38,996 nt of DNA from Gammaproteobacteria bacterium (lineage in GTDB: Bacteria; Pseudomonadota; Gammaproteobacteria; Steroidobacterales; Steroidobacteraceae): positions 13,390 to 52,385 of the forward strand of contig JAHEAZ010000013.1 in NCBI GenBank assembly GCA_024642505.1, in the 5' to 3' direction. The position numbers and the translations under genes were made by a program. The notes under the pieces were generated by a model. That model saw nothing but the letters and a program-made list of their open reading frames with translations. It was not told where the DNA came from and did no database searches. Positions 3,992-26,167 of the stretch are shown here, piece after piece. The stretch's first letter is position 1; every line of letters starts with the position of its first letter.

Positions 3992-4675
3992 TCAGGCGAT
4001 GGTCTTGCTGAGTGTCTGGCTGCGTTCGCTCTCGACCCCCGACGCGTTCAGCGACGACATCGCGAAGAAATAGGTCGACGGCGACAGATTGTCGATCACG
4101 TAGGTGGTGACGCCGGGCGAGTTGATCGTGACGACCTGGTCGAGCGAATTCTGTGACTTGCCGAAGTAGATCTTGTATCCGGCGAGGTTCGTCAGTGGCG
4201 AGCCGTCGGTGTTCTCGGACGGTGGTGTCCAGCTCAGCGTCACCGAGCCCATGGCCACCTGGGTGACATCGACCAGAAAGACGGGCAGCTCCGCCGAGGC
4301 CTTGCCATCGCTGACCGCAATCACGATCTCTTCGTAAGAACCAACATCGCCGTCGCCCGGGACGCCCGACAGTCTCCCTGTACTGGAGTCGAACGCAAGC
4401 CAATTGGGCTTGTTGCGGATGCTGAAAGAGAGTGGATCGTTGTCCGGGTCACTGGCGCTCGGCTGGAAGTCGTACGTCTCCCCGGCCTTTACCGCAGTCG
4501 GGGGCTGGCCCGAGATGCTGGGGCTCCTGTTCGAAGAGCCGCTGGGGCCAACGGGTGAGGCGGGCGAACCAGTGCCATTCAACGCTCTCGCCGATGGATT
4601 CGATTCGAAACAGCCGGCGAGCAGCGCCGCAAGTCCGAGAGCTACGAGCCAGCGATGAGAATTGAATGCCTGCAA
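3992..4675 (-). CDS. Riboswitch-controlled lipoprotein with Ig-like and FnIII domains
   Basis: This is a predicted outer-membrane or surface lipoprotein with lipobox LLAG-C after a short hydrophobic segment. After a Ser/Pro/Gly-rich linker there is one putative Ig-like (He_PIG) repeat, from SPSISGQPPT to the VIAVSDGKAS region. A fibronectin III domain follows, with SVTLSWTPPSENTDGSPL, GYKIYFGKS and TYFFAMSSLNASGVES. It is a short paralogue of the protein at 24635. I prefer TTG 4675, preceded by GAGGCGGAG, because it gives a normal 20-residue signal peptide; the upstream ATG at 4711 has no ribosome-binding site and would add acidic residues. A c-di-GMP-I riboswitch lies in the leader. The role is probably adhesion or matrix binding (inference). 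Confidence 0.85.
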   Translation of the reverse strand: MQAFNSHRWLVALGLAALLAGCFESNPSARALNGTGSPASPVGPSGSSNRSPSISGQPPTAVKAGETYDFQPSASDPDNDPLSFSIRNKPNWLAFDSSTGRLSGVPGDGDVGSYEEIVIAVSDGKASAELPVFLVDVTQVAMGSVTLSWTPPSENTDGSPLTNLAGYKIYFGKSQNSLDQVVTINSPGVTTYVIDNLSPSTYFFAMSSLNASGVESERSQTLSKTIA

Positions 4676-4680
4676 CTGCT

Positions 4681-4702
4681 CCGCCTCGCGAGACGAGGGC
4701 GG
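4681..4702 (-). promoter_or_regulatory. Hairpin covering the ribosome-binding site
   Basis: In the minus-strand transcript CCGCCCTCG pairs with CGAGGCGG around a short loop (eight pairs, one bulged C). The 3' arm contains the GAGGCGG that would serve the TTG start at 4675. This looks like the expression platform of the c-di-GMP riboswitch at 4804-4883: when formed it would block translation. The competing pairing that links it to the aptamer was not identified. Confidence 0.4.
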
Positions 4703-4803
4703 ACCATTCAAACGAGACGGAGACGCGCCAGCACGGCACTGCTGCCAATTGACGACAAATCGAGTGACCGTGCGTCGATGAATCGACGGCGGTCTCGTCT
4801 GCC

Positions 4804-18628: not shown

Positions 18629-18768
18629 TGCGTTTGAGAGCCGATTCACAGTCCGCCACGGCCCGAACCGTTAAGGCCGTCACGCTCGGCCACCAGCCAT
18701 ATCCCTAATATCGGACCACATTCTGTCGCATTGCGCCCGCAGGTCGGGCGTGTCGGAGAGCGGTGGTC

Positions 18769-21700
18769 ATGTCGAAAGCCGGCGATAAAGCCAGGGTGAT
18801 GCGCCTGCATCCCATGTCGTCCGAAGGGGATGATCAGGGGGCGCGCCCGGCGCCGGCACCAAACAGGCGCAGCGAGGACCGGGACGACGACGCCGTCAAT
18901 TCGCTGCTCGAGCGGCAGCTCATGGAAGCGGCGGATAGCCTGGGCAAGATCCGTGTCCGTGAGCTGATCAGGATGGTCAGCCGACAGTACGACTCCTTCG
19001 AGTCAGACCGTAACTCGCTCCAGACAGTCATGCAGATCGCCTCGGACGAGGCGAACGCAATGACCGAGGCACTCGAGCGCGAGGGTGCCGTCAAGCTGCA
19101 GGCCATCCTCGACCACGTCAAGGATGGAATCATCTCCTGCGACCAGCACGGACGCATCGAGAGCTTGAACCGCACTGCCGAGCGCTTCTTCGGCGTGAGG
19201 CAATCAGACCTGCTGTCGCAGACGCTGGACGAGCTGCTGCCAGAACTTGCGCCCGGCGGCGACATCGCCCAGGCGCTCGACGACCTGGCCGCTTCGCAGG
19301 AAAACACCCACTACGATCTGGCTGCCAAGGACACCAACGCCAAGCACAAGCGCGGCGAACTGATGCCCTCGGAAATACTTGTCAGCAAGATGTTGCTCAG
19401 GAAGCGGGTGATCTACATTGTCTGCGTGCGCGATACGCTGGAGCGCACCAAGGCGGAAGTCGCACTGAAGGACAGCGAGGCCCGCTATCGGGTGCTGGTC
19501 GAGAATGCGCCCGAAGTCGTCGTCGTCTACGACGTCGATTCAGGCAAGTTCGTGGACTGCAACGAAAACGCCGCGAAATTCCTGAAGATGACCCGGGCCC
19601 AGCTGTTGCGGGTGGGCCCCGAGGAAATCAGCCCGCCGAATCAGGCCGACGGAACAGAATCGTTCGGCAGGGCCCGCGGTCACATCGAAATGGCGTTGAA
19701 TGGTGGTACGCCGGTCTTCGAGTGGCTGCACCGCGATGCGGAAGGCCGGGATATTCCCTGCGAGGTTCGCCTGGTGCGCCTGCCAAGTTCCTCCGGGAAA
19801 CTGATCCGCGCGAGCATCATCGACATCACCGATCGCAAGCGGGCTGAGCACATCGCCGCCGGTGAGCGCCGGGTGTTCGAGCGCATCGCGTCGAACGCCA
19901 GCCTGACCAAGTCGCTCGAGGCGATCACCGATGTCATCGAGCAGGTGCTGCCGCAGTCGATCTGCTGCATTCGCCTTTACGACCCTGCTCATGGCGTGCT
20001 GACCCATGGCGCCGGCCCGAACCTGCCGCGTGAGTACGTGGCACTGATGGAAGAGGTGCCCGCCGAGATTCGTTACGGATCCTGTGCTGCCGCGGTGGCG
20101 CTGCAACGGCAAATCATCGTGCCGGACCTCAGCAATGATCCGTTCTGGGAATACCGACGTGATGCGGCATTGCAGGCTGGCCTGCGGGCGTGCTGGTCTA
20201 CCCCCATCTGTCACGATGACGGCAGAACGCTGGGCACCTTCGCCGTGTACCTGAAGCGCACCGGTCTTCCTTCGCGGCGCGATCTCGAACTGATGGCCCG
20301 GATGACCCAGCTGGCGCGCATTGCGATTGAACGTCGTCGCGCGGAGAAAGCCCTGCGGGCCAGTGAACAGCGCTTCCGTGGCTTGTTCGACAACGTCGTG
20401 GAAGGCGTCTACCAGGTCACGCTTGCCGGGGAACTGCTTTCTGCCAACCCGGCGCTGATCGAAATGCTGGGCTACGAGTCCTTTGAGGCGCTGAGCGTCG
20501 TTGGCCTGACCGGCAACCTGTTCGTCGATCCGGACCAGCGCAATACCCTGGTCAAGAAGCTCATCGACGAAGGCGAACTGGTCGAGGCCGAGTACGAACT
20601 GCGGCGCAAGGACGGCTCCGTGATTACCGTCAGCGAGAACGCTCGGGCCAATCGCGACACACTCGGCAAGGTCATTGGCTTCGAGGGGACTATCACCGAC
20701 GTGACCGAGCGCAAGCGCGCAGAGATCCGCCTGTTCGAGGAAAAGGAGCGCGCGCAGGTCACCTTGCAGTCCATCGTGGACGCGGTGATCACCACCGACC
20801 AGCAAGGCGTCATCGACTACCTGAACCCGGTTGCCGAGCACCTGACTGGCTGGACCGCCTCGGAGGCGATCGGCAAGTCGATCGGCGAGGTGGTCAGGCT
20901 GACCACCGAGTCGGGACACGAGCCGGTCGAGGATCCCGTCAACCGGGTCGTCCGCGACGGAACCGCCGTCACCCTGTCGGATCAGACGGTCCTGAACGGG
21001 CGCAACGCCGGCGAAATCGCCATTCAGGCGAGTGCTGCTCCCATTCGGGATCGCGACGGAAACATGGTAGGCGCCGTCATGGTATTCCACGACGTCAGCC
21101 AGGAGCGGCGCATGAAGCGGCTTCTGTCCTACCAGGCCGCTCACGATGCACTGACCGGGCTGATCAACCGGCGCGAATTCGAGAACCGGCTCAGTATGGC
21201 CTGGGACGCGGCTCAGGAAGATCATGCTGTCACGCACGCCATGGTCTATGTGGACCTCGACCAGTTCAAGATCGTCAACGATACCTGTGGTCATCCGGCC
21301 GGCGACGAGCTGCTCAGGCAGGTCACCGGTCTGTTGCAGACACGGATCAGGTCGGTCGACATACTGGCCCGGCTCGGCGGCGATGAGTTTGGCATCCTGC
21401 TGCAGAACTGCAGCATGGACGTCGCGATCCGGATTTCCGAGGCAGTCCGGCAGGCGATCCGCGACTACCGCTTTGACTGGGACGGCAACACCATGCAGAT
21501 CGGCGCGTCGATTGGCATCGTGGAGCTCAATCATGAAACGGAGAGCATCGCGACGCTGCTGTCGGCTGCTGATGTCGCCTGCTATTCCGCCAAGGACGGT
21601 GGACGTAACCGCGTCCACACCTACGATCCGGCCAGCGCCTCGGCGCGACATCGCGAGATGCGATGGGTTTCACGCCTGACCAGTGCCAACGACGAAGGGC

Positions 21701-22419
21701 GCCTGGACATCGTGTTTCAACCGATCGTGCCGATTGCCGCCAATGGCGACTCTCGACCGCACTACGAGCTGCTTCTCCGGTTACGGGACGAAGACGGCCG
21801 TGTGGTCATGCCTCGTGAGTTCATTCCGGCGGCGGAGCGCTTCAACGTCATGCCGATTCTCGATCGATCGGTCATCGAACGGGTCCTTGCTACCCTGGTG
21901 CCATCGAAGCGCGACGGCGTCTTCGATGCGCCGTTTACGGTGGCAGTAAACCTGTCGGGTACCACGTTATCCGACCCGGGTTTCCTTGATTCGTTGATTG
22001 AGAGGCTCGAGGAGCATGATCCGACCCCGGGCGTGCTCTGCTTCGAGATTACCGAAACGGCGGCCATTGCAAATCTCGCGAATGCGAGCCACTTCATGCG
22101 CGAGCTGTCGACCCGCGGCTGCCTGGTGTCGCTCGACGACTTCGGCAGCGGCTTGTCGTCATTCAACTACCTGCGCAACCTTCCAGTGAACTACCTGAAG
22201 ATTGACGGGCAGTTCGTGCAGGACGTGGCGCGGGACCGGGTGGACCGGAGCCTGGTGGAGGCCATCGTCAAGGTCGGCCGCGCGATGGGTATCTACGTCG
22301 TTGCGGAGCGGGTCGAGACCCAGGAGGTGTACGACACGCTACAGGAAATCGGGGTTGGCTATGCGCAGGGTTACCTGCTGGGCCGGCCGGCCCCGATAGA
22401 GGAATTCCCGCACAGGTAG
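18769..22419 (+). CDS. Multi-PAS/GAF diguanylate cyclase-phosphodiesterase
   Basis: This ~1216-residue soluble sensor has a coiled N-terminus, then PAS domains (about 115-225 and 238-355), a GAF domain (about 365-520), two more PAS domains (about 525-645 and 655-780), GGDEF (about 785-945) and EAL (about 960-1210). The GGDEF active site is intact (RLGGDEFG), with an RxxD product-inhibition site (RSVD) five residues before it. The EAL signature is ELL, but the other phosphodiesterase residues are present: VNLSG, FEITETA, DDFGSG, LKIDGQF and AERVE. It could both make and break c-di-GMP, and no membrane segment is seen. ATG 18769 was chosen; GTG 18763 also fits the GGAG. Two c-di-GMP riboswitches lie 2 kb downstream. 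Confidence 0.93.
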   Translation: MSKAGDKARVMRLHPMSSEGDDQGARPAPAPNRRSEDRDDDAVNSLLERQLMEAADSLGKIRVRELIRMVSRQYDSFESDRNSLQTVMQIASDEANAMTEALEREGAVKLQAILDHVKDGIISCDQHGRIESLNRTAERFFGVRQSDLLSQTLDELLPELAPGGDIAQALDDLAASQENTHYDLAAKDTNAKHKRGELMPSEILVSKMLLRKRVIYIVCVRDTLERTKAEVALKDSEARYRVLVENAPEVVVVYDVDSGKFVDCNENAAKFLKMTRAQLLRVGPEEISPPNQADGTESFGRARGHIEMALNGGTPVFEWLHRDAEGRDIPCEVRLVRLPSSSGKLIRASIIDITDRKRAEHIAAGERRVFERIASNASLTKSLEAITDVIEQVLPQSICCIRLYDPAHGVLTHGAGPNLPREYVALMEEVPAEIRYGSCAAAVALQRQIIVPDLSNDPFWEYRRDAALQAGLRACWSTPICHDDGRTLGTFAVYLKRTGLPSRRDLELMARMTQLARIAIERRRAEKALRASEQRFRGLFDNVVEGVYQVTLAGELLSANPALIEMLGYESFEALSVVGLTGNLFVDPDQRNTLVKKLIDEGELVEAEYELRRKDGSVITVSENARANRDTLGKVIGFEGTITDVTERKRAEIRLFEEKERAQVTLQSIVDAVITTDQQGVIDYLNPVAEHLTGWTASEAIGKSIGEVVRLTTESGHEPVEDPVNRVVRDGTAVTLSDQTVLNGRNAGEIAIQASAAPIRDRDGNMVGAVMVFHDVSQERRMKRLLSYQAAHDALTGLINRREFENRLSMAWDAAQEDHAVTHAMVYVDLDQFKIVNDTCGHPAGDELLRQVTGLLQTRIRSVDILARLGGDEFGILLQNCSMDVAIRISEAVRQAIRDYRFDWDGNTMQIGASIGIVELNHETESIATLLSAADVACYSAKDGGRNRVHTYDPASASARHREMRWVSRLTSANDEGRLDIVFQPIVPIAANGDSRPHYELLLRLRDEDGRVVMPREFIPAAERFNVMPILDRSVIERVLATLVPSKRDGVFDAPFTVAVNLSGTTLSDPGFLDSLIERLEEHDPTPGVLCFEITETAAIANLANASHFMRELSTRGCLVSLDDFGSGLSSFNYLRNLPVNYLKIDGQFVQDVARDRVDRSLVEAIVKVGRAMGIYVVAERVETQEVYDTLQEIGVGYAQGYLLGRPAPIEEFPHR

Positions 22420-23231: not shown

Positions 23232-24254
23232 ATGAAATCGGAGTCGCAACTTGCCTTCGACAGCAAGCTCGGCAGCGATTTGGTCGTGCCTCTGGACCGG
23301 CGACTGTCGGTGGCGCCGATGATGGACTGGACTGATCGGCACTGCCGGTTTTTCCTGCGCCTGTTTTCGCCGCGTGTCCTGCTCTACACGGAGATGATCG
23401 TGGCCAACGCAATCCTGCGCGGCGATCGGGATTACCTGCTCGGCTTCGACCCGGCGGAGCATCCGGTGGCGCTGCAGCTGGGTGGATCGGATCCGGCCAT
23501 GCTGGCGGAGGCTGCAGCGATCGGCGAGCAGTTCGGTTACGTCGAGGTCAACCTGAATGTCGGCTGCCCCAGCGACCGCGTGCAGAGTGCGACGTTCGGA
23601 GCTTGCCTGATGGCCCGGCCCAGGCTGGTGGCCGACTGTGTGCGCGCCATGCGCACATCGGTAAGGGTGCCCGTGACCGTGAAGACCCGGATCGGGATCG
23701 ACGACCGGGATGATTACGGTTTCTTGCGCGAATTCATCGATGAAGTCGCGGCCGCGGGATGCGGGGTATTCATAATTCACGCACGCAAGGCAGTTCTGCG
23801 AGGCTTGTCGCCGAAGGAGAACCGCGAGGTCCCGCCACTCAACTATGAGCGGGCATGGCAGGTCAAGCGCGATTACCCACAGCTGACAATCGTGGTGAAT
23901 GGCGGACTGAGGACCGTGCCACAGGTAGTGGATCAGTGGCAGCACGTTGACGGCACAATGCTTGGACGCGAGGCCTACCACAATCCCTATGTGCTCTCAG
24001 CGCTGCACCGGGTGGCGTACGACGACGATTTCCATGCGCCGGATCCGGCCGCGGTTGTCGCACGGATGCAGGACTACGCATCCCGGCAGGTCGCTCAAGG
24101 TGTTCCGCTGCGTGCCATCACCCGGCATATGCTCGGAATGTTCAACGGCCGCGCAGGTGCGCGCAACTGGCGGCGCACGCTCAGCGAGGGCGTGAACCGC
24201 GGGGCGACGTCTCCGGCGCTGCTGTCGGAGGCGCTGCGCGCCCTGAACGGCTAG
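23232..24254 (+). CDS. dusA: tRNA-dihydrouridine(20/20a) synthase
   Basis: This 340-residue FMN enzyme reduces uridine 20/20a in the tRNA D-loop. DusA signatures are SVAPMMDWTDRHCR, YTEMIVANA, VNLNVGCPSDRVQS, catalytic Cys in FGACLM (about residue 125), VKTRIGIDD, IIHARKAVLRGLSPKENR and GTMLGREAYHNPY. Length and the C-terminal helical domain (GMFNGRAGARNWRRTL) are standard. It directly follows the amidohydrolase gene (stop and start one base apart). Confidence 0.96.
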   Translation: MKSESQLAFDSKLGSDLVVPLDRRLSVAPMMDWTDRHCRFFLRLFSPRVLLYTEMIVANAILRGDRDYLLGFDPAEHPVALQLGGSDPAMLAEAAAIGEQFGYVEVNLNVGCPSDRVQSATFGACLMARPRLVADCVRAMRTSVRVPVTVKTRIGIDDRDDYGFLREFIDEVAAAGCGVFIIHARKAVLRGLSPKENREVPPLNYERAWQVKRDYPQLTIVVNGGLRTVPQVVDQWQHVDGTMLGREAYHNPYVLSALHRVAYDDDFHAPDPAAVVARMQDYASRQVAQGVPLRAITRHMLGMFNGRAGARNWRRTLSEGVNRGATSPALLSEALRALNG

Positions 24255-24277: not shown

Positions 24278-24359
24278 TTGTGTGAAACGCATCACCGTTT
24301 GGCAGTTTGCAGTCTTGCCGGACGCCCGCGATTTCACATAGAGTGGCGCGGACTGCAGC

Positions 24360-24434
24360 GGCAAACCCGTCGAAAGGCGGGGACGCAAAGCCTCCGGTCT
24401 AACGGCCTACAGGGCCTACGACAGCGGGGTTGCC
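24360..24434 (+). promoter_or_regulatory. Cyclic-di-GMP-I riboswitch, first of a tandem pair
   Basis: This is a typical class I (GEMM-I) aptamer. P1 is GGCAAACCC with GGGGTTGCC. P2 is CCCGTC-GAAA-GGCGGGG with a GNRA tetraloop. The invariant GACGCAAAGCC is followed by P3 with CTCCGGTCTAACGGCCTA and its return strand CCTACGACAG. It is followed by ~130 nt of leader and a second aptamer. Upstream, TTGCCG (24315) and CATAGA (24337) could be weak -35/-10 elements placing the transcript start just before the aptamer. Confidence 0.95.
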
Positions 24435-24566
24435 AGTTCGGCGGATGGACGTTCTGCCCTCCGCTATTCTGAGCGCCCCTTGTCTTGAACCGCAGGATTT
24501 CCCGCTGGCAGCCATGTGCTTCCGGTGCACGTTGGCGTGCGAAATGTCCGGGAGTGATTTGAAAAA

Positions 24567-24632
24567 GGCAAACCCGTCGCGAGGCGGGGACGCAAAGCCA
24601 CTGGTCTCGCAATGCGAGAAAGCAGGGTTGCC
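24567..24632 (+). promoter_or_regulatory. Cyclic-di-GMP-I riboswitch, second, abutting the start codon
   Basis: This second class I aptamer has P1 GGCAAACCC with GGGTTGCC, P2 CCCGTC-GCGA-GGCGGGG (GNRA loop), the invariant GACGCAAAGCC, and a shorter P3 (TCTCGC-AAT-GCGAGA). The 3' strand of P1 ends two bases before the ATG at 24635, and the only purine-rich candidate ribosome-binding site (AGCAGGG, 24621-24627) lies within the aptamer. Ligand binding, which stabilises P1, should therefore hide that site and repress translation (inference). Confidence 0.93.
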
Positions 24633-24634
24633 AA

Positions 24635-26167
24635 ATGATTTCGATGCATCGTTCCGTTTGTTCGCATTGGTGCCGCGTATTATCGGTTGTGCTAGCGGCC
24701 ATGTTGTTCGCGACGCCGGCCGTTGCCGGCAAGAACAACAGCAATGGCAAGTCATGGGGCGTCATCAAGGGAAACCTATTCGGCAGCAAGTGCGACAAGA
24801 CGCCGATCGCGCCGACGATCGACGGGCTGCCGACCTTCTCGCTGACCGAGGGCGAGACCTATCAGTTCACGCCCAGCGCTGCCGACGCCAACTGTGACAG
24901 CCTGAGGTTCTCGATCTCCGGCCAGCCCGACTGGTCGAGCTTCAACGCATCCGACGGCACGCTATCGGGTAAGGCACCGGCTGGCTCGGCCGGCAGCTAT
25001 CCAGGAATACGTATCTCGGTCAGCGACGGCACCTACACGACCTCGCTGGCGACCTTCAGCATCACCGTCTATGACAACGCGACACCGGTGCTGAGCGGTA
25101 CGCCGCCAGGCAGGGCGGCGAGCGGACAGAAATATGGCTTTGTACCGATCGCGTTCGACCCGGACGGACAGAAGCTCAGCTTTGGGATCAGAAACCGTCC
25201 CGTCTGGGCCTCCTTCAACAGTTCGACGGGTGAACTCGCCGGAACTCCGTCAGACACCCAGCTCGGCACGTACGCAGATATCACGATTACAGCGACCGAT
25301 GGAGTGGAGACTGGCTCGCTCGGTCCATTTGCCATCGTCGTTGAAACGGGTAACCGCGCTCCGTCCATCTCCGGAACCCCGGCGGGATCCGTTGTTGCCG
25401 GGCAGTCTTACTCTTTCAAGCCTTCCGCCACCGACCCGGACAACGATTCGCTGACATTCAGCATCAGCAACAAGCCCACCTGGGCAACGTTCAGTACCGG
25501 CACCGGACTGTTGGCGGGCACGCCTGCCGAGGGCACGAGTGGCGAGTATGTCGATATAGTCATCGGCGTCAGCGATGGCAAGGTGACCTCGGCACTGCCT
25601 GCCTTCGGGATCGTCGTCAGCACTGCGAATCGCCCACCCAGCATCACCGGCACGCCGGCCTCGGTGGTGACCGTGGGTCAACCCTACAAGTTCGTTCCGG
25701 GCGCGTCAGATGCTGACGGAGACTTGCTGACCTTCAGCGTTACCAACAAGCCTGCCTGGGCCTCCTTCAACAAGTCGACCGGCCAGCTGGGCGGCACTCC
25801 GGGATCCGGCAGCACGGGCACGTATTCCAACGTCCGGGTCAGCGTCAGCGATGGAACGTCGTCGGCAGCCCTGCCGGCGTTCTCGATTGTGGTCGAGCAG
25901 GCGTCGAAAGGCAGCGCCACCTTGTCGTGGCAGCCGCCGACGCAACGCACCGACGGCACGCCGCTGGTCGACCTGGCCGGTTACCGGATCCTGTACGGCA
26001 ACTCACCGGACAGCTATTCGAATCGGGTCACCCTGGACAACGCCGGGCTAACGTCCTATGTCGTCGACAACCTTGCGCAGGGCACATGGTACTTCGTGAT
26101 GACGGCATTCGATGCTTCAGGCGCGGAGAGCGATTACTCCAGCGTCGGGTCCAAGACCGTTCAGTAA
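24635..26167 (+). CDS. Secreted Ig-like repeat/FnIII protein under tandem riboswitches
   Basis: This 510-residue secreted protein has a signal peptide (CRVLSVVLAAMLFATPAVAG), then four putative Ig-like (He_PIG/cadherin-like) repeats of ~90 residues starting near 57, 148, 239 and 331. Each has the pattern PSISGTP, FxPSATDPDxDSLTFSI, KPxWAxFN, TGxLxGTP and VSDG. A FnIII domain follows at about 426-510 (SATLSWQPPTQRTDGTPL; GYRILYGNSPDSYS). It lacks a lipobox, PEP-CTERM motif or other obvious anchor. It is the long paralogue of the lipoprotein at 3992, and both are controlled by c-di-GMP-I riboswitches. It is probably a matrix or adhesion protein (inference). ATG 24635 fits the AGCAGGG spacing; ATG 24644 is less likely. 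Confidence 0.88.
   Translation: MISMHRSVCSHWCRVLSVVLAAMLFATPAVAGKNNSNGKSWGVIKGNLFGSKCDKTPIAPTIDGLPTFSLTEGETYQFTPSAADANCDSLRFSISGQPDWSSFNASDGTLSGKAPAGSAGSYPGIRISVSDGTYTTSLATFSITVYDNATPVLSGTPPGRAASGQKYGFVPIAFDPDGQKLSFGIRNRPVWASFNSSTGELAGTPSDTQLGTYADITITATDGVETGSLGPFAIVVETGNRAPSISGTPAGSVVAGQSYSFKPSATDPDNDSLTFSISNKPTWATFSTGTGLLAGTPAEGTSGEYVDIVIGVSDGKVTSALPAFGIVVSTANRPPSITGTPASVVTVGQPYKFVPGASDADGDLLTFSVTNKPAWASFNKSTGQLGGTPGSGSTGTYSNVRVSVSDGTSSAALPAFSIVVEQASKGSATLSWQPPTQRTDGTPLVDLAGYRILYGNSPDSYSNRVTLDNAGLTSYVVDNLAQGTWYFVMTAFDASGAESDYSSVGSKTVQ

Follow-up and report, generated by a model that had tools for sequence, protein, structure and literature searches.

Unlike c-di-GMP-I aptamers, with and without tetraloop receptor, in tandem ahead of a He_PIG gene, with the start codon inside the second

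By which route does a c-di-GMP-I aptamer act on its gene, and what do two of them do in one leader? In the available text of PMC4744006, the output route of class I is unclear for Vc1, with no apparent terminator or anti-Shine-Dalgarno (anti-SD) element before gbpA, and unknown for Vc2. The leader analysed here carries two such aptamers. We favour, with moderate confidence, a reading of this pair, one aptamer with and one without tetraloop receptor, in which aptamer 2 would be its own expression platform and a translational OFF switch, and aptamer 1 a second sensor for the same ligand.

Two unlike class I aptamers in one leader

Coordinates refer to the window, i.e. the whole stretch of 38,996 nt that was analysed (its own genome is G000); the leader features and the gene that follows lie on the + strand. 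An Rfam covariance-model scan (cmscan; gathering scores 35 bits for RF01051 and 59 bits for RF03167) over the whole window gave three matches above cut-off, two of them in the leader of the gene at 24635..26167. This putatively regulated gene encodes a 510-aa secreted protein with four He_PIG (Ig-like) stretches, one fn3 stretch and, by reading of the sequence, a signal peptide. Upstream of the leader lies dus (23232-24254), the 3' end of which is 95 nt short of aptamer 1. A promoter-like pair recognised by eye (TTGCCG, 18 nt, TAGAGT; 24315..24344) stands immediately 5' of aptamer 1 and may be the promoter; the equivalent site in the relatives G002 and G003 has TTGCCG with a TAGTGT box at a spacing of 17 nt. 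A strict sigma-70 scan of the leader found no promoter.

Both elements exceed the gathering score of RF01051, aptamer 1 (24350..24437) with 80.4 bits (E 2e-14) and aptamer 2 (24557..24636) with 73.4 bits, which bears out the preliminary description of two complete aptamers in one leader. The spacer between them (24438..24556), weakly conserved in an identity comparison of G000, G002 and G003, measures about 120 nt and not ~130 nt as first given. Aptamer 1 has the common form of c-di-GMP-I, with a GAAA loop, a CUAA..CCUACG receptor and P1 ACUG/CAGU. In aptamer 2, the loop is GCGA and the short P3 (GGUCUCGCAAUGCGAGAAAGC) lacks a tetraloop receptor; by reading, CUAA..UAUG is absent. With a GYRA loop and no tetraloop receptor it fits the receptor-less 'type II' of class I as set out in the available text of PMC11218506.

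The pocket sequences GGCAAAC, GACGCAAAG and GCC are present in both aptamers. The pocket bases of c-di-GMP-I are G20, A47 and C92 (Vc2 numbering), and GCC spans C92 whichever C is meant. At the level of sequence, both elements are confirmed as complete c-di-GMP-I aptamers, and they would be expected to bind c-di-GMP. Aptamer 2 also exceeds the gathering score of RF03167 (c-di-GMP-I-GGC) with 69.4 bits (E 1.4e-14, match 24558-24636). In the alignment, the consensus of this model, GACGCGAAG, has G at the A47 position, to which the name "GGC" presumably refers. Because A stands in aptamer 2 where the model has G, the RF03167 label is not its pocket type, and aptamer 2 was rejected as a GGC pocket variant. 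The cGAMP variant of class I has A at position 20. Both aptamers carry G there, which led us to reject a cGAMP variant and a two-ligand input; the two-input control considered earlier is not supported by two pockets that both carry c-di-GMP bases. PMC9481103 describes a specificity base that is either G or A. Among 59 genomes searched, an order-level relative with a 4.7-Mb genome (G041) had the most RF03167 matches, 22.

Class I matches in the whole assembly (96.5% complete) comprise the two of the leader and a third at 4893-4801 (-). The latter has a GAAA loop, and its 3' end lies ~90 nt from a He_PIG/fn3 frame with a lipoprotein-like signal (gene 3992-4711 (-)); every aptamer found in the assembly (3/3) thus precedes a He_PIG gene. 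A 1218-aa PAS-GAF-GGDEF-EAL protein, encoded at 18763-22419 three genes 5' of the leader, could be the maker or breaker of the ligand of these switches.

Two aptamers in one leader had been called unusual. Tandem class I pairs as such are, however, known and common: 347 doublets and 12 triplets of c-di-GMP-I are reported in PMC9481103, and their enrichment is also noted in PMC12452182. Such tandems invite an alternative in which the two aptamers, as independent stages, push expression the same way and give a steeper, pseudo-cooperative response, the AUG overlap being the wiring of the second stage. It gains from the doublets and triplets of c-di-GMP-I, which exceed those of every other class in the part of PMC9481103 considered, from Bc3-5 of Bacillus thuringiensis, which yields more digital control according to the available text of PMC4759541, and from the c-di-GMP bases in both pockets. 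We nevertheless consider it unlikely, as the relative G004 has no aptamer 1 at this locus and as aptamer 1 has an alternative hairpin of the ligand-prevented kind (ON), whereas a P1 over the AUG is an OFF design. A further tandem, L092 (G453:C36, from a member of the class), consists of two closely alike aptamers ~120 nt apart.

Start codon and SD-like stretch within aptamer 2

ATG 24635 is the earliest start codon past the upstream in-frame stop and stands two bases 3' of the conserved GCC. The preliminary description let P1 end before this codon. Local folding and a compensatory change in G004 argue instead that the 3' strand of P1, CAAAU (24632..24636), holds the first two bases of the start codon and pairs with the 5' strand AUUUG (24557..24561); the UUUG of the latter has CAAA of the aptamer core (24569-24572) as another possible partner. 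The sole SD-like stretch ahead of ATG 24635, AGCAGGG (24621..24627), lies within aptamer 2, as stated before, but in the 3' strand of P3 and not in P1. It is situated 7 nt 5' of the ATG, and AGGG is only fair as an SD.

A downstream start at 24644 with another ribosome-binding site (RBS) had been named as the observation that would overturn this arrangement. By reading of the window sequence, no purine-rich stretch in range of 24644 was found outside the aptamer. In the homologous frame of G004, which runs from the P1 ATG as MKTSGRILAAALLL, no later start is available, because no ATG, GTG or TTG stands between this P1 ATG and the hydrophobic stretch. Both observations favour 24635 over 24644.

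G002, G003 and G004 belong to the genus of G000, apparently within the family Steroidobacteraceae. Contigs G002:C61 and G003:C6 contain the same tandem at the same position after dus, ahead of homologous He_PIG genes, and their second aptamers likewise end CC-AA-ATG; the three genomes have the tandem in common by descent. A comparison of spacer conservation among relatives, proposed earlier as a check, separated the parts of the leader: identity of G000 to G002 and G003 is 91% and 88% in aptamer 1 and 88% and 85% in aptamer 2, and only 58% and 49% in the spacer (G002-G003 77%). The first 60 coding bases are 26% and 27% identical. At the same locus after dus, G004:C72 has aptamer 2 alone, with P1 GUGUG/CACAU; aptamer 2 is the constant part of the locus, since G004 keeps only this one. 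Given the dus identities to G000 of 84% (G004), 65% (G002) and 63% (G003), it would be simpler for G004 to have lost aptamer 1 once than for aptamer 1 to have been gained twice, as far as these few genomes indicate. In G013, which belongs to another genus (74% identity), neither GACGCAAAG nor GACGCGAAG was found within 2.8 kb around dus.

Homologues of the He_PIG/fn3 protein occur in 3/5 other genomes of the genus (4/6 including its own); G001 and G005 of the same genus, each ~74% complete, gave no match to the 510-aa protein. G004 also contains a second AUG-embedded receptor-less aptamer (L077, G004:C72:6277-6352), with GGAG in P3 and a weak P1, which precedes another He_PIG-like gene immediately upstream of dus. 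A contig in a Ramlibacter MAG (L064), whose aptamers and protein start match the G002 contig in the compared stretches, is likely the result of misbinning.

The comparison of relatives also bears on the possibility that only aptamer 2 is functional, aptamer 1 being idle here or controlling only a short leader RNA and the tandem being a leftover of duplication. G004 manages without aptamer 1, the spacer is weakly conserved and a consensus terminator was not found, all of which would suit an idle aptamer. Yet aptamer 1 is conserved like aptamer 2 even though the coding sequence behind the leader has diverged to 26-27% identity over its first 60 bases, and its alternative hairpin beats shuffles in 3/3 tandems, which makes this explanation very unlikely in our judgement.

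P1 over the start codon reads AUUUG/CAAAU, twice GUUUG/CAAAU, and GUGUG/CACAU, the last with one pair altered on both sides from U-A to G-C. Sequence and comparison show both aptamers and their positions and, in four loci, retention of the SD-like purine run in P3 and of the predicted P1 pairing, in agreement with the earlier proposal that RBS and start lie inside aptamer 2.

In local folds, the first two bases of the AUG have an unpaired probability of 0.00-0.09 in G000, G002 and G003 and of ~0.4 in G004. Opening of P1 costs 7.7 (G000), 9.0 (G002), 3.5 (G003) and 3.9 (G004) kcal/mol in these folds; the P1 helix of G002 comprises 11 pairs and extends to codon 3. If the 3' strand is prevented from pairing, the folds of G000 and G004 bring the P1 5' strand onto the aptamer core (UUUG/CAAA and GGUGUG/CAUACC, respectively); the G002 fold does so with the register shifted (UUGUUU/AGGCAA), and that of G003 pairs this strand downstream instead. 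A swap of the P1 5' strand between the AUG side and the core is a possible switch that the models suggest. Folds of the whole leader without ligand, which are unreliable at such length, leave the AUG 0.51-0.78 unpaired and conflict with the local folds; an open AUG would fit an open ON state.

The P1 duplex was compared with shuffles of its 5' strand, of which 8 in 500 were as good in G002, 34 in G000, 94 in G003, 47 in G004, 249 in the other copy of G004 and 27 in G218, a genome of another family. The duplex beats shuffles clearly in G002 only. In the other copy of G004 and in G218, the AUG lies outside P1. The arrangement in G000 suggests that translation is most likely OFF at high c-di-GMP.

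Occurrence of the AUG-embedded form in other genomes

The start-codon overlap might also be a coincidence of a short leader, with control exerted elsewhere (e.g. on mRNA stability) and the ribosome invading P1 anyway. This was weighed in a comparison of 50 aptamers, in which a P3 was called SD-like when its 3' strand contained GGAG, AGGG, AGGA or GAGG. An SD-like P3 (AGGG or GGAG) was present in 6/6 aptamers with a long ORF at an ATG two bases on and in 2/44 others (Fisher 1.8e-6); the 44 contain duplicates of L073 and L074 (42 unique), as well as aptamers that had been fetched for their following ATG. In a larger parse of 63 aptamers, with class-level loci added, an SD-like P3 was found in 6/7 against 2/56, and a GYRA loop in 6/7 against 5/56. 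The Fisher p-values overstate the independent evidence, because 5/6 embedded cases come from one genus. G218 is the sole independent embedded case, and its P1 leaves the AUG uncovered. There (L058, G218:C7), the AUG-adjacent receptor-less aptamer is followed by a 474-aa membrane-like protein with no Pfam match at E 0.001.

When the six AUG-adjacent aptamers are aligned, 95.5% of the cells pair and 6/26 pairs show a double change; pairing of P3 is preserved via double changes in columns 53-83 and 56-81. A class search with a model of these six gave matches in 66/369 genomes, and 13 of the 29 loci outside the own genome were parsed, so that start-abutting cases may have been missed.

An aptamer followed by ANATG was found in 6/396 genomes sampled from the order and the reversed pattern in none. 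In a collection of 84,980 genomes, from which the record of the window itself may have been left out, the strict pattern yielded 14 stretches. Five of these (L060, L061, L064, L069 and L071; four distinct, as L064 repeats L061) open frames of at least 295 aa, and all five are receptor-less; the remaining nine open 1-122 aa, and one among them, L066, contains no aptamer. A looser pattern gave 12 places in 11/396 genomes, with a frame of >200 aa in five, and one hit in the reversed control.

An ATG two bases past the aptamer without a long ORF, as in 9/14 stretches (one no aptamer) and 7/12 places, is what a coincidence would produce. All six long-ORF embedded cases, on the other hand, are receptor-less with AGGG or GGAG in P3, and the P1 helix over the AUG is kept in four loci with the compensatory change included; a seventh case, L085, is without these traits, but its likely start is further downstream. 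Coincidence is in our view most improbable.

L085, whose GAAA-loop aptamer contains the AUG of an open frame and has no SD-like P3, was dropped from the embedded set, as its signal-peptide start lies further downstream. G074 was also discarded: its P1 AUCUG/CAGAU covers an ATG, but the frame has only 39 aa and the likely gene begins further on. Two genomes of one genus in another family of the class (G734 and G526; L083 and L084) have receptor-less aptamers with a GGAA loop and P1 CCUG/CAGG, in which the P1 3' strand CAGGA leads directly into the ATG of proteins of ~120-130 aa that, by reading, have signal peptides. This form is seemingly a separate, independent fusion of aptamer and RBS.

Aptamer 1, known systems and the proposed mechanism

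The 3' strand of aptamer 1 could take part in an alternative hairpin, GGGGUUGCCAG...CUGAGCGCCCC, followed by UUGUCUU (24480-24486), the whole spanning 24426..24486. The equivalent downstream partner in G002 and G003 is CUGG..UUCCC. The fold z of the hairpin is -3.13 in G000, -2.70 in G002 and -3.98 in G003. With the downstream flank shuffled, equally stable structures numbered 10 (G000), 2 (G002) and 43 (G003) per 500 for dinucleotide shuffles and 28, 23 and 58 for single-base shuffles. Four pairs of the inner stem show a double change, a score reached by 29/500 shuffles in this set of only three sequences. A strict terminator scan of the leader found no consensus intrinsic terminator after aptamer 1; the partly U-rich tail UUGUCUU is present in G000 only of the three tandems. 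A general downstream anti-aptamer element at class I loci was unsupported (35 aptamers, mean z 0.02, two below -2), and when downstream complements were sought blindly in this way, aptamer 1 did not stand out in any of the three tandems (z -1.6 in G000, -0.2 in G002 and -0.3 in G003). Two other tandems, L006 and L007 (G058 and G045), consist of two receptor-bearing aptamers; there GGCAACCCC after the first aptamer is a 9-nt complement of its 3' strand GGGGUUGCC.

Because the hairpin resembles the terminator model of Bc4, in which ligand breaks the terminator, aptamer 1 would be an ON element. It may, on this slender likeness, act on transcription in the sense opposite to aptamer 2. Taken further, aptamer 1 would turn transcription ON at low c-di-GMP through disruption of its alternative hairpin and aptamer 2 translation OFF at high c-di-GMP through closure of P1 over the AUG, the receptor-bearing aptamer 1 presumably being the tighter binder and the receptor-less aptamer 2 the weaker. 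We judge such a band-pass quite unlikely.

Bc3-5 is comparable in that one leader carries two aptamers of class I with a common ligand (PMC9481103, PMC4759541), and in the Bc4 model a terminator hairpin competes for the 3' strand of the aptamer (PMC4759541), as the hairpin of aptamer 1 would here. As far as these accounts go, Bc3-5 consists of like units, each with a terminator, that act on transcription, whereas here the types are unlike and the second holds RBS and AUG. The 'type II' aptamers of PMC11218506 share with aptamer 2 a GCGA/GUGA loop and the absent tetraloop receptor; an SD-like P3 or an AUG in P1 is undescribed in the available text, while here the platform would be fused into the aptamer. 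The same source provides in Bc1 of B. thuringiensis a precedent for the trapping of RBS and AUG with c-di-GMP, seen by SHAPE-MaP, and for opposite effects on transcription and translation; Bc1 differs as a single aptamer with a long platform, the RNA of which, and not P1, traps the AUG, and its downstream expression did not track c-di-GMP changes in the part of PMC11218506 considered. In the bi-mechanism tandem of SAM-II and SAM-V, a first aptamer likewise lies upstream and the second governs access to the RBS; its aptamers belong to separate structural classes, both for SAM, and an intrinsic terminator follows the first (PMC9481103, available text), whereas two subtypes of one class are combined here and a consensus terminator was not found. 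Position and pairing of aptamer 2 at the RBS fit such an arrangement, in which aptamer 2 may control the RBS.

An SD inside the aptamer occurs in SMK/SAM-III, preQ1-II and SAM/SAH riboswitches, in which the ligand-bound aptamer itself hides the RBS as proposed for aptamer 2; ligands and folds are different. c-di-GMP-I is not known to be among the riboswitches with this feature. A preQ1 riboswitch with a partly overlapping SD has been described. The literature searched, as far as its texts were available, contained no start codon within P1 of c-di-GMP-I, and we make no claim of priority.

In the mechanism that we infer, from ligand binding and switching direction to the entire output of aptamer 1, the P1 5' strand AUUUG would be free without c-di-GMP to pair with upstream RNA or the aptamer core. 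The lower part of P3 and P1 would then be loose and the ribosome would get to AGGG and AUG. Binding of c-di-GMP would close the three-way junction, P1 would capture the AU of the AUG and P3 the SD, and initiation would stop. Aptamer 1, transcribed first, would share its 3' strand with the alternative hairpin and probably acts on transcription or on folding of the leader.

With its two aptamer types, this tandem could serve as a natural experiment on whether a response is sharpened or shaped by tandems. As sensor, SD and start codon form one 80-nt element, the step from ligand to initiation could be tested with few mutations. If the band-pass were true, the surface protein would be made only at middle c-di-GMP, with two opposite sensors for one ligand in one leader. 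As aptamer 2 contains the RBS and the first letters of the start codon, it is probably this sensing RNA that shuts off or permits translation.
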